A stretch of DNA of 6,956 bases, taken from positions 1 through 6,956 of the forward strand of contig RFHZ01000753.1 in NCBI GenBank assembly GCA_003696125.1, read 5' to 3'. A program made the translations under genes and the position numbers. Positions 2,928-6,956 of this stretch are shown piece by piece. The DNA is from Nitrospinota bacterium (GTDB taxonomy: Bacteria; Tectomicrobia; Entotheonellia; J063). Position 1 is the first letter of the stretch, and every line of letters begins with the position of its first letter. The notes below the pieces were generated by a model. The model was given only the letters and a program-made list of their open reading frames with translations. It searched no databases and was not told the DNA's origin.

Positions 2928-3716
2928 ATGGCAGATGTGGAACTCGTCATTAAGGATTTACGAGGCAGTATCGAGGGTAAAGAGATTCTCAAAGGCGTGA
3001 ACCTGACCATAAAAAAGGGAGAGGTCCATGCGCTAATGGGGCCCAACGGCTCGGGGAAGAGTACCCTGGCCTATCTGTTGATGGGACACCCCAAGTACCA
3101 GGTCGATAGCGGTGAGGTCCTGTACAAGGGGGAGAATATCCTGGATATGGAGCCGGATGAACGGGCCCGGAATGGCCTCTTCCTGGCCTTTCAGTATCCG
3201 AGTGAGATTCCGGGAGTCAGTGTCTCCAACTTCCTTCGGACTGCCCTGAAGGCGAAGAGTGAGGCGAGTGGGAACGGGAAGAAAGGCCTCTCCATTCCCG
3301 AGTTTCGGCGCAAGCTCAAGGAAAAGATGACCCTGCTCCAGCTCGATGACTCTTTTGCCAGTCGCTACCTCAACGAGGGATTCTCAGGCGGAGAGAAGAA
3401 GCGAATGGAGATCTTGCAGATGGCCATGCTGGAGCCGGAAATGGCCATCCTGGATGAAACCGATTCTGGTCTGGATATCGATGCCCTGCGTACGGTGGCC
3501 GAAGGGGTCAACTACTGTAAAGAAGCATATGGCATGGGCATTTTGCTGATCACCCACTATCAACGGATTCTGCATTACATCAAGCCGGACCATGTCCATG
3601 TCATGTTCGACGGCCGCATTATCGCCTCAGGAAGCAGTGAACTGGCAGAAGAACTGGAGGCCAAGGGCTATGAATGGCTGAAAGAAGCCTTTCTGGCAAA
3701 GGAGGAAGTCTCATGA
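2928..3716 (+). CDS. sufC: Fe-S cluster assembly ATPase SufC
   Basis: A 262-residue, ABC-type but soluble ATPase that binds SufB and SufD and powers conformational change during Fe-S cluster assembly in the cytosol. Hallmarks are the start '[21 protein letters not shown]', Walker [10 protein letters not shown] (38-46), Q-loop Q89 in the SufC-typical '[12 protein letters not shown]', signature FSGGEKKR (152-159), Walker B MAILDE (172-177), the SufC-specific '[11 protein letters not shown]', and switch histidine H210 in 'ITHYQRIL'. The ending '[13 protein letters not shown]' is also typical. ATG 2928 is preferred because AGGAG lies 12 bases upstream and the protein then starts like other SufC. 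The in-frame ATG 2901 (9 codons longer) has only AAGG immediately adjacent. It is the first gene of the suf operon, and its TGA overlaps the sufB start. Confidence 0.96.
3698..3705 (+). promoter_or_regulatory. Ribosome binding site of sufB
   Basis: AAAGGAGG lies inside the end of sufC, 7 bases before the ATG at 3713. This near-perfect Shine-Dalgarno sequence fixes the sufB start at 3713 rather than at the in-frame upstream codon at 3674. It also indicates coupled translation with sufC through the ATGA overlap at 3713-3716. Confidence 0.9.
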
Positions 3717-5116
3717 GTGATACCCAAGCTCTGGAAGCGATAGATGAATATCGGTACGGTTTTCACGATCCCGAAGATTACGTTTTCAAATCGAAGAAGG
3801 GGTTGAGTCGCCAGGTCGTCGAAGAACTCTCCTGGATGAAGAAAGAGCCGGACTGGATGCGGCAATTTCGCCTCCGTGCCCTGGAGATCTTTGAGAAGAA
3901 GCCGATGCCGACCTGGGGAGGCGACCTCTCTCAACTCGATTTTGACGATATCTACTACTTCATCCGCCCCACCGATCGGCAGGGACGGAGCTGGGATGAA
4001 GTGCCGGAGTATATCAAACAGACCTTTGACAAACTCGGCATTCCAGAAGCAGAGCGGAAGTTCTTGGCCGGGGTCGGGGCCCAGTACGAATCAGAAGTCG
4101 TCTATCACAACCTGCGGGAAGAATGGGAAAAGCAAGGGGTCATCTTTGTCGATATGGATACCGCCCTGCAGAAGTATCCGGATCTGGTCAAAGAGTATTT
4201 CAGTACCGTGATCCCACCTGCCGACAACAAGTTTGCCGCTTTGAACAGCGCGGTATGGAGCGGGGGAAGCTTCGTCTATGTCCCGGCTGGCGTGCATGTC
4301 GAGATCCCTTTGCAGGCCTATTTCCGGATCAATGCCGAGAACATGGGACAGTTCGAGCGCACCCTGATCATCGCGGAAGAGGGGAGCTTTGTCCACTACG
4401 TGGAAGGGTGTACCGCTCCCATCTATACCACCGATTCCCTGCACAGTGCGGTAGTCGAAATCATCGTGAAGAAGGGGGCCCGGGTTCGCTACACCACCAT
4501 CCAGAACTGGTCTACCAACGTCTATAACCTGGTGACCAAGCGGGCGGTTGCCTACCAGGATGCCACCATGGAGTGGATCGACGGCAACATCGGGAGCAAG
4601 CTCACCATGAAATATCCCAGCGTCTATATGGTCGAGCCGGGTGCGAGAGGGGAGATTCTCTCCATCGCCTTTGCCGGCAAAGGCCAGCATCAGGACGCCG
4701 GGGCCAAGGTGGTCCATGCTGCCCCGTACACCACCTCCCGTATCACCTCCAAGTCGATCAGCAAGGGAGGGGGCCGGGCCGGATACCGTGGGCTGGTCAA
4801 GGTGTACGAAGGGGCAGAGCATGTCAAATCCAATGTCCAGTGTGATGCCCTGATCATGGATGAGGAATCCCGCTCCGATACCTACCCTTACATCGAGATC
4901 GACGAGGATAACGTGAGTATCGGACACGAGGCAACGGTGAGCCGGGTGGGAGAGGAGCAGCTCTTCTACCTGATGAGCCGAGGACTCAGCCAGGAAGAGG
5001 CGACCACCATGATCGTCACCGGCTTTATCGAGCCGATCGTGAAAGAGCTCCCCATGGAGTACGCGGTAGAGATGAACCGACTAATTCAACTGGAAATGGA
5101 AGGGTCGGTAGGGTAA
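3713..5116 (+). CDS. sufB: Fe-S cluster assembly scaffold protein SufB
   Basis: A 467-residue scaffold subunit of the SufBCD complex, on which nascent Fe-S clusters form. The N-terminal helical region has '[19 protein letters not shown]', followed by '[19 protein letters not shown]' and the right-handed beta-helix core with '[20 protein letters not shown]'. C233 in 'VEGCTAP' corresponds to E. coli SufB C254 (sulfur acceptance). C377 in 'VQCDALIM' and E406 in 'GHEATVS' correspond to E. coli C405 and E434 (cluster ligation), with the same 29-residue spacing. H405 precedes E406. The C-terminal helices '[20 protein letters not shown]' would contact SufC. Length is normal for the shorter SufB form, and no intein or frameshift is visible. 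It overlaps sufC by 4 bases and is separated from sufD by 131 structured bases. Confidence 0.97.
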
Positions 5117-5132
5117 AATAGAAGGAGACGCG

Positions 5133-5228
5133 AGGCAGGCTGGAGGACAAAGGGCTGCTCCCTTGTCCTCACCTTCTCCTTTCTGTATCCTGTGGAGCGG
5201 GAAGGAGGAGAGGTCTGCCTGTCTTTTT
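5133..5228 (+). ncRNA. Predicted three-way-junction RNA between sufB and sufD, with T-run
   Basis: Three stems close one compact junction. P1 pairs 5133-5141 with 5212-5220 (9 bp, two G-U). P2 pairs 5143-5150 with 5163-5170 (8 perfect bp), then across a one-base bulge 5152-5154 with 5160-5162 (3 bp) around a 5-base loop. P3 pairs 5173-5184 with 5199-5210 (12 bp, three G-U). Only bases 5142, 5171-5172 and 5211 are left in the junction. P1 is followed by TCTTTTT (5222-5228), like an intrinsic terminator or attenuator, and the sufD Shine-Dalgarno sequence comes 8 bases later. I know of no described family matching it. The pairing was found by hand; no energy calculation or covariation test was done. 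Confidence 0.55.
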
Positions 5229-5235
5229 GTCATAC

Positions 5236-5243
5236 AAGGAGGG
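5236..5243 (+). promoter_or_regulatory. Ribosome binding site of sufD (supports TTG start)
   Basis: AAGGAGGG is a near-perfect Shine-Dalgarno sequence. Its core (5237-5242) ends 5 bases before TTG 5248, which decides that start. The alternative in-frame TTG at 5227 lies upstream of this site and inside the T-run, so it would have no ribosome binding site. Confidence 0.88.
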
Positions 5244-5247
5244 AAAG

Positions 5248-6570
5248 TTGAGTCAAGAAGTTACACTCCATACAGAAACGTTTTCGCAAAAAGCGGTTGA
5301 GGAGCTTTCCTGGCTGAAGAACGAGCCGGAATGGATGCGGAAGAAGCGCCTGGACGCCTGGCACCTCTTTACCCGGATGCCTCTCCCCAGGTGGGAGCGG
5401 ACCGATATCAGCCGCCTGCAGTTGGATGCCCTCTCTCCTTTTGCCAGACCAGAGGCAGAAACCGACTATCGTACCGCCCTCGCTCAGGCCTCTCATACCC
5501 TGCTCGGATTGGAAGAACAGCAGGGAGGGATGCTCCTCCAGCACGACTCGGAGGTTGTCTATAAGAGCCTGGCCGAGGACCTCCGCCGGCAGGGGGTGAT
5601 CTTTACCGATCTGGATAGTGCGGTACAGGACTATCCTGAGTTGGTGCAAAAGTATTTTATGAGCGAGTGTGTCACCCCGGATAGCGGGAAATTTGCCGCC
5701 CTCCATGCCGCTTTTTGGAGTGGTGGCCTGCTCCTCTATGTGCCCAAACAGACAGAGATCACCCTGCCCCTGCAGGCCTATTTCTCCCTGGGAACCTCCC
5801 AGCTCGGACTCTTTCAGCATACCCTGATCATTACCGAACCGGGAAGCCAGATCACCCTGTTAGAGGAATATACCTCCCCCTCCTTACCCGGCCAGGCCCT
5901 GAACGCTGGGGTGACCGAAATCCTGGTCGGTCCAGAGGTCAATCTCACCTATGTCAGCCTGCAGAACTGGGGGACAAATGTCTATCATTTAGCCACGCAG
6001 AAGGCGCTGTTGGAACGGGATAGCAACTTCACCTGGATCTTTGGCACCGTGGGAGGACATCTCTCCAAGATCGATATCGAAACCCTGCTGCAGGGACCAG
6101 GAGCGACCATTGAGCTGATGGGGTTCTTCCTGACCGGGGAAGGCCAGCACTTTGCCTTCAACACGGTGCAAAACCATATTGCCCCTTATACCACCAGCGA
6201 TCTCCTCTGTAAAGGGGCACTCAGCGGGAAGAGTCGTTCGGTGTTTGAGGGATTGATCCGGGTCCATAAAGGTGCCCAGCACATCAACGCCTACCAGACC
6301 AATCCCAATCTCCTCCTCAACGACAAGGCGCGTGCCGACTCCCTGCCCACCCTCGAGATCGAGGCAAACGACGTGCGGTGTACGCATGGGGCCACGGTGG
6401 GACGCCTGGAGGAGGAGTTGATCTTCTATCTCATGAGCCGGGGGCTCTCGCGGCGAGAAGCCGAAAAGCTGCTGGTTTACGGGTTCTTTGAACCGGTGTT
6501 ACAAAGAATCCCCTTGGAGAATGTACGCCGCTCTCTGGAAGAAACGATTGAAAGGAAGATCGAAAAATGA
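5248..6570 (+). CDS. sufD: Fe-S cluster assembly protein SufD
   Basis: A 440-residue paralogue of SufB that forms the SufBCD complex and helps iron entry and cluster formation. It has an N-terminal helical segment very like that of SufB ('VEELSWLKNEPEWMRKKRL'), 'QGVIFTDLDSAVQDYPELV', a beta-helix core, and the C-terminal '[26 protein letters not shown]'. The conserved SufD histidine is H380 in 'CTHGATVGRL' (E. coli SufD H360). At the sites of the functional SufB cysteines it has Y208 (for C233) and N352 (for C377), and G381 replaces the SufB ligand E406. That pattern identifies it as SufD and not a second SufB. Translation starts at TTG 5248, set by AAGGAGGG. Its TGA overlaps the sufS ATG by 4 bases. 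It is the only gene in the cluster preceded by a long structured spacer. Confidence 0.94.
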   Translation: MSQEVTLHTETFSQKAVEELSWLKNEPEWMRKKRLDAWHLFTRMPLPRWERTDISRLQLDALSPFARPEAETDYRTALAQASHTLLGLEEQQGGMLLQHDSEVVYKSLAEDLRRQGVIFTDLDSAVQDYPELVQKYFMSECVTPDSGKFAALHAAFWSGGLLLYVPKQTEITLPLQAYFSLGTSQLGLFQHTLIITEPGSQITLLEEYTSPSLPGQALNAGVTEILVGPEVNLTYVSLQNWGTNVYHLATQKALLERDSNFTWIFGTVGGHLSKIDIETLLQGPGATIELMGFFLTGEGQHFAFNTVQNHIAPYTTSDLLCKGALSGKSRSVFEGLIRVHKGAQHINAYQTNPNLLLNDKARADSLPTLEIEANDVRCTHGATVGRLEEELIFYLMSRGLSRREAEKLLVYGFFEPVLQRIPLENVRRSLEETIERKIEK

Positions 6571-6956
6571 GCATGTTGGAAGCAGGCAGTAAGGTGGATT
6601 TTCGGGTATTGCGTAAGGACTTTCCCATCTTGAACCGGAAGGTGCATGGCAAACCGCTAGCCTACCTTGATAACGCCGCCACTTCCCAAAAGCCTGAGGT
6701 CGTCATCAAGGCGATGACCCATTACTACCACCGGTATAACGCCAATGTGCACCGGGGGATCTATCAGATCAGTGAAGAGGCGACGGCGAAATACGAAGAG
6801 GGGCGGGCCAAGGTTGCCCATTTCATCAACAGCCGGAGCATAGAGGAAGTCGTCTTTGTGCGAAATACCACCGAAGCGATCAACCTGGTGGCCTATAGCT
6901 GGGGACGGGCCAACATACAACCCGGTGATGCCATTGTCCTGACCGAGATGGAACAC
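6567..6956 (+). CDS. sufS: Cysteine desulfurase SufS, N-terminal part (cut by window end)
   Basis: The first 130 codons of a PLP-dependent class V aminotransferase-fold cysteine desulfurase, which removes sulfur from L-cysteine and passes it as persulfide towards SufB. Family marks are 'LRKDFPILNRKVHGKPLAYLD', 'NAATSQKP' (substrate-end loop), 'YNANVHRGIYQISEEAT', 'VVFVRNTTEAINLVAYSWG' (the T-T-E-[AS]-I-N PLP-phosphate motif) and the final EMEH, where SufS proteins continue as EMEHHSN. The catalytic PLP lysine and persulfide cysteine lie beyond the window. ATG 6567 overlaps the sufD stop (ATGA), and AAGGAAG at 6552-6558 lies 8 bases upstream. ATG 6573 is a less well-placed alternative. The class (SufS rather than IscS) follows from these motifs and from its place in the suf operon. 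Confidence 0.94.
   Translation, partial: MSMLEAGSKVDFRVLRKDFPILNRKVHGKPLAYLDNAATSQKPEVVIKAMTHYYHRYNANVHRGIYQISEEATAKYEEGRAKVAHFINSRSIEEVVFVRNTTEAINLVAYSWGRANIQPGDAIVLTEMEH

Follow-up and report, generated by a model that had tools for sequence, protein, structure and literature searches.

A predicted branched RNA structure between sufB and sufD in a Nitrospinota bacterium is a candidate intercistronic control element

The window analysed here, 6,956 nucleotides of a Nitrospinota bacterium, is one whole contig (RFHZ01000753.1) of a fragmented genome (4.18 Mb across 990 contigs) and carries a sufCBDS cluster on the forward strand. The sufC gene (2928-3716), which encodes the ABC ATPase of the SUF system for Fe-S assembly, was assigned from its Pfam ABC_tran domain, its best matches and the sufCBDS gene order. 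Both sufB (3713-5116, with its TAA stop at 5114-5116) and sufD (5248-6570) match Pfam SUFBD_core, at E values of 9e-91 and 6e-81, and SufB is 72-76% identical to the proteins of its class relatives. The sufD gene begins with a TTG codon at 5248 that is preceded by AAGGAGG at 5237-5243. The class-V aminotransferase gene sufS (Pfam Aminotran_5) is represented by its 5' part, 6567-6956, where the contig end cuts the gene. A Fur-family gene (2153-2644) lies directly upstream of sufCBDS and is a likely local regulator of that operon; ahead of it, within 1983-2644, stands a near-consensus promoter (TTGACA-17-TATAGT with TG). Two of the three junctions in the cluster are ATGA overlaps, sufB starting at 3713 ahead of the sufC end at 3716 and sufS at 6567 ahead of the sufD end at 6570. 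The third, between sufB and sufD, is a spacer of 131 nt (5117-5247), and the gene boundaries bear out the first-pass annotation in describing it as the sole gap in an otherwise overlapping suf operon.

This spacer is predicted to hold a structured RNA element of about 107 bases, 5122-5228, placed between the sufB stop and the sufD ribosome-binding site. In the predicted fold a 9-bp stem P1 (5133-5141 with 5212-5220) closes a three-way junction from which two hairpins emerge. P2 (5143-5170) consists of 8+3 bp, 5143-5150/5163-5170 and 5152-5154/5160-5162, separated by a bulged A5151. P3 (5173-5210) consists of 14+3 bp, 5173-5186/5197-5210 and 5188-5190/5194-5196, with a bulged A5187 and four G-U pairs. 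Pair probabilities for P1 to P3 are mostly 0.9-1.0, and the predicted fold is unchanged at 55 C. An outer stem P0 of 8 bp joins the Shine-Dalgarno-like strand AAGGAGAC (5122-5129) to 5221-5228, at a pair probability of 0.5-0.7. The three stems and the junction proposed earlier are thus recovered with P1 and P2 as described, P3 being 14+3 bp rather than 12 bp; the TCTTTTT reported to follow the stems is present as well, but it is paired inside P0, a stem that the proposal lacked. The U-rich run TCTTTTTGT (5222-5230) has two possible partners in alternative folds, 5122-5129 in P0 or 5235-5243, where ACAAGGAGG forms the sufD Shine-Dalgarno region and would be the 3' strand of an alternative hairpin. 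Reading onward from the Shine-Dalgarno-like bases 5122-5127, we found no ATG, GTG or TTG at a distance suitable for a small ORF.

The fold is stronger than composition predicts. Folding 5117-5250, the check suggested at the outset, gave z -3.3 with none of 200 shuffles reaching it. The element itself, 5122-5228, has a minimum free energy of -57.9 kcal/mol against -40.1 (sd 3.7) in dinucleotide shuffles, a z of -4.84 that none of 4,000 shuffles attained. Among 15,548 GC-matched 110-nt windows drawn from 263 kb of unmasked sequence of the same genome, only one contig-end foldback outdoes it in stability. Of 80 contigs of this genome that were sampled, 37 read as N. By computation, then, the structure of 5122-5228 is real and non-random. 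The antisense strand gives a weaker fold (-43.0, z -3.3) than the sense strand (-57.9, z -4.8) because eight of the 45 pairs of the element are G-U, and the stems contain no A-C mismatch. The G-U pairs and the lack of A-C mismatches fit a structure that would be maintained as RNA and not as a DNA palindrome; a reservation is that the sense strand was the one on which the stems were picked.

Strong folding is common among the gaps of this genome: z lies below -3 in 10 of the 41 tandem gaps measuring 80-400 nt, whereas no convergent or divergent gap (19 in all) reaches that level. Several of these tandem gaps hold dispersed palindromes, GTAGGGGCG...CGCCCCTAC, which we located at L066 3176-3328, L073 2307-2504, L067 4339-4493 and L054 1686-1944, where they are accompanied by GGCACAAAGG/GGCACAGAGG and ATTACTCATTACTCGTTACTC runs. 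For the sufB-sufD element itself, a REP- or MITE-like dispersed palindromic repeat was considered and is not supported, the element being present in one copy by DNA search and by structure model. The DNA search of the searchable part of the genome returned no second copy, and a one-sequence covariance model run on the same part returned none either, its next match having an E value of 3.1. That structure model also retrieved no homologue in 31 genomes, including four class relatives and 26 more distant ones. A search of genome contigs for close SufD relatives returned only three distant loci, and viral contigs yielded none.

The element has no counterpart in the class relatives that made up our comparison set with the source genome (five genomes in all: the source, G001, G002, G003 and G004). 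Their sufB-sufD spacers measure 12 nt in G001, 11 nt in G002 and 27 nt in G004, none with a hairpin, and 70 nt in G003, which carries a different 12-bp hairpin; searched as a dispersed repeat, the G003 hairpin gave only weak short matches. Because the spacers of these relatives are short and hairpin-free or hold a different hairpin, the element is, on this sequence comparison, specific to the source lineage and not conserved even within its class. The first-pass annotation had named short or unstructured spacers in related genomes as grounds for abandoning its proposal, and three of the four relatives have spacers of just that kind.

These comparisons also bear on where the element came from. 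Just after the sufB stop lies a purine tract, GAAGGAGACGCG, that resembles the sufD ribosome-binding site of G003, GAGGAGACGCG, with a 10-nt match directly before P1, and this likeness suggests that the folded part could have been added behind an older, short spacer. A reading in which the element is a neutral or mobile-element relic builds on the same likeness: a palindromic insertion would have landed behind an ancestral short spacer and been kept since it did no harm. The TAA followed by AATAGAAGGAGACGCG resembles the ribosome-binding sites of class relatives, G003 being the example, three of those relatives (G001, G002 and G004) have short spacers, and the source genome is rich in dispersed palindromes and in gaps with structure. 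We nevertheless consider this origin improbable, though worth keeping in mind. An insertion of this kind left no further copy that either search could find, the retained G-U pairs and absent A-C mismatches point to the RNA level, and P0 lies partly inside the supposed ancestral spacer.

The proposal that the element might sense a ligand linked to Fe-S status found no support. Rfam returned no match at gathering score over the whole window, and at E values up to 10 over 5050-5300 the best match was a eukaryotic family of no relevance that scored below half its cut-off, in keeping with the first impression that this is not a known riboswitch. A related possibility is that the fold serves as the 5' leader of a separate sufDS transcript, perhaps a ligand-sensing one. 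A promoter-like TGGAAA-17-TAAAAT at 5091-5119 would place an RNA start near 5126, where the fold has its base; it scores 9/12, however, and such sites are expected by chance. The element moreover has no Rfam match, no riboswitch-type alternative terminator pair and no conservation, and we regard a separate leader as very improbable.

The U-run next to P1 raises the question of transcription termination. As a partial intrinsic terminator, a constitutive attenuator, P1 followed by GUCUUUUU would release some polymerases and so lower sufDS relative to sufCB. The run adjoins P1 directly, and textbook terminators do occur at this junction elsewhere, with scores of +53 in G023 (10 bp and T6), +18 at L138 and +20 in G141. 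The source element, by contrast, has a d'Aubenton-Carafa type score of -26.3, or of -3.6 when counted from U5222, below threshold in either case, and a terminator scan did not call the site. Its tract, GUCUUUUUGUC, is interrupted, P1 closes an 88-nt branched structure rather than a simple hairpin, and P0 can take up the U-run. The earlier suggestion of attenuation is weakly supported, and we think partial termination unlikely.

A further reading assigns the U-run to translation. Pairing with 5122-5129 would form P0 and leave the sufD Shine-Dalgarno free, pairing with ACAAGGAGG would hide it, and a ribosome positioned at the stop codon of sufB, or a factor bound there, could shift the balance and so link SufD synthesis with the translation of sufB. 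The two states differ by no more than about 1.5 kcal/mol, and the predicted opening of the Shine-Dalgarno falls from about 0.9 with P0 to about 0.2 with 5100-5131 blocked, as a ribosome at that stop would do. This energy difference is within the error of the model, however, and whether P0 or the hiding hairpin is the minimum free energy fold depends on the flanks that are folded along with it. Pyrimidine tracts near a Shine-Dalgarno pair with it by nature, and for this reason we give a translational switch a low prior and hold it to be distinctly unlikely.

To place the junction in a wider context, we surveyed sufB-sufD spacers across the domain, first in a sample of 60 genomes and then in one of 290. 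Most readable junctions are short or unstructured. Unrelated hairpins nevertheless occur at this position in G023 (10 bp followed by T6), G141 (11 bp, z -3.1), G003 (12 bp), L034 (10 bp) and G036, whose spacer of 165-180 nt (L196 4280-4459) contains several hairpins with a minimum free energy of -79.9 and z -3.5. In the genus of G023, probably Thermus (L136-L160), a hairpin of 10-14 bp stands between sufB and sufD in 17 of 25 species; its arms vary between species and still pair, and in some a T5-T6 run is present. Of the other eight species, seven have a spacer of 42 nt that lacks a strong hairpin and one a spacer of 9 nt; sufC and sufB overlap in all 15 operons of this genus that were examined. 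These hairpins were located one by one, the MAFFT alignment of the spacers being heavily gapped, and their scores rank at roughly the top 5% when set against random windows of the same regions. On the other side, longer sufB-sufD spacers without a strong hairpin are found in G138, G139, G273 and G327, and in one of the operons compared (G327) a similar hairpin lies at sufC-sufB. The recurrence of hairpins at sufB-sufD is therefore suggestive, on small numbers. A bolder generalization would make this junction a recurrent control point, at which unrelated lineages independently placed a hairpin, a terminator or a branched structure that keeps the levels of SufB and SufC above that of SufD; the source element would then be the most elaborate version, a three-way junction whose bistable U-run doubles as a gate for the sufD ribosome-binding site. 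We find this generalization attractive but doubtful.

Altogether, we tentatively favor, at somewhat less than an even chance, a model in which the element acts in cis as an intercistronic structure and uncouples sufCB from sufDS, with mRNA stability or processing as the most likely route. We envision that sufCBDS would be transcribed as one message that is cleaved at the element itself, within sufD or downstream of sufD. The fold could then block 3'-to-5' exonucleases such that sufCB mRNA is kept as sufDS mRNA is lost. The long spacer would also abolish the translational coupling that the other junctions retain, and the SufB:SufD ratio may change. This uncoupling model draws on a fold beyond chance, on the preference for the sense strand, on the confinement of the open junction to sufB-sufD and on the unrelated hairpins found there in other lineages, among them the probable Thermus genus with its like layout; against it stand the missing element in class relatives, the hairpin-free long spacers elsewhere and the frequency of folded gaps in the genome. 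The decay and processing machinery that it calls upon is plausible because the source genome has an RNase III gene and part of a PNPase-like gene, cut by a contig end. Among the functions put forward by the first-pass annotation, protection of an mRNA end or setting of the SufB:SufD ratio fits best, judged by analogy and from the hairpins that recur at the junction.

SufB occurs in complexes with SufC, with or without SufD, at varying ratio. A structure at exactly sufB-sufD, with analogues in unrelated bacteria, would offer a testable cis-acting answer to how cells set these ratios from one operon. If the element is neutral, it has little significance.

The uncoupling model has precedent in E. 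coli. In iscRSUA, as the work of Desnoyers et al. (2009) is described in PMC8593673 and PMC8300815, a long folded gap between iscR and iscS protects the iscR part of the message while the small RNA RyhB triggers decay of iscSUA. The element described here resembles that gap, as those accounts present it, in being a long structured gap within an Fe-S assembly operon, a strong fold between two cistrons of one operon that lies before the ribosome-binding site of the downstream gene. It differs in operon, genes and sequence, and a RyhB-like RNA belongs to the isc side of the comparison; the iscR-iscS structure, on the same accounts, can protect the upstream message, whereas for the suf element protection is proposed by analogy. 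More generally, protective RNA structures reshape about 12% of E. coli polycistronic mRNAs (PMC5927463). Those structures are likewise stable folds between cistrons of one operon, but they were recognised from decay rates and 3' ends, whereas the suf element is known from sequence alone. With the intrinsic terminator of G023 the element shares a stem with a U-run behind it in the sufB-sufD gap, and it departs from the simple hairpins of that probable Thermus type in its branched, 88-nt form, its interrupted U-run and its below-threshold score. The element is thus probably a further case of a known kind of intercistronic control rather than a ligand sensor, and could be the suf counterpart to the iscR-iscS control. 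A literature search found no paper on a structured or terminating sufB-sufD junction.

Two further features of the window deserve mention. The 283-nt leader before sufC (2645-2927) is strongly folded, with z -4.1 in its best 110-nt window and -2.7 over the whole leader; an Rfam search of it gave no credible match, and the predicted fold could represent a further RNA control element for the suf operon. At the start of the contig, 1-34 is the exact reverse complement of 68-101 and the frame after 69 resembles the C-terminus of a glycogen synthase, a likeness that we infer from a frame with no Pfam match; the inverted copy and this frame indicate that 1-67 is probably a fold-back assembly artefact. 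Another contig of the genome (C25, L066) ends in the same kind of fold-back, and 2 of the 88 contig ends checked show one.
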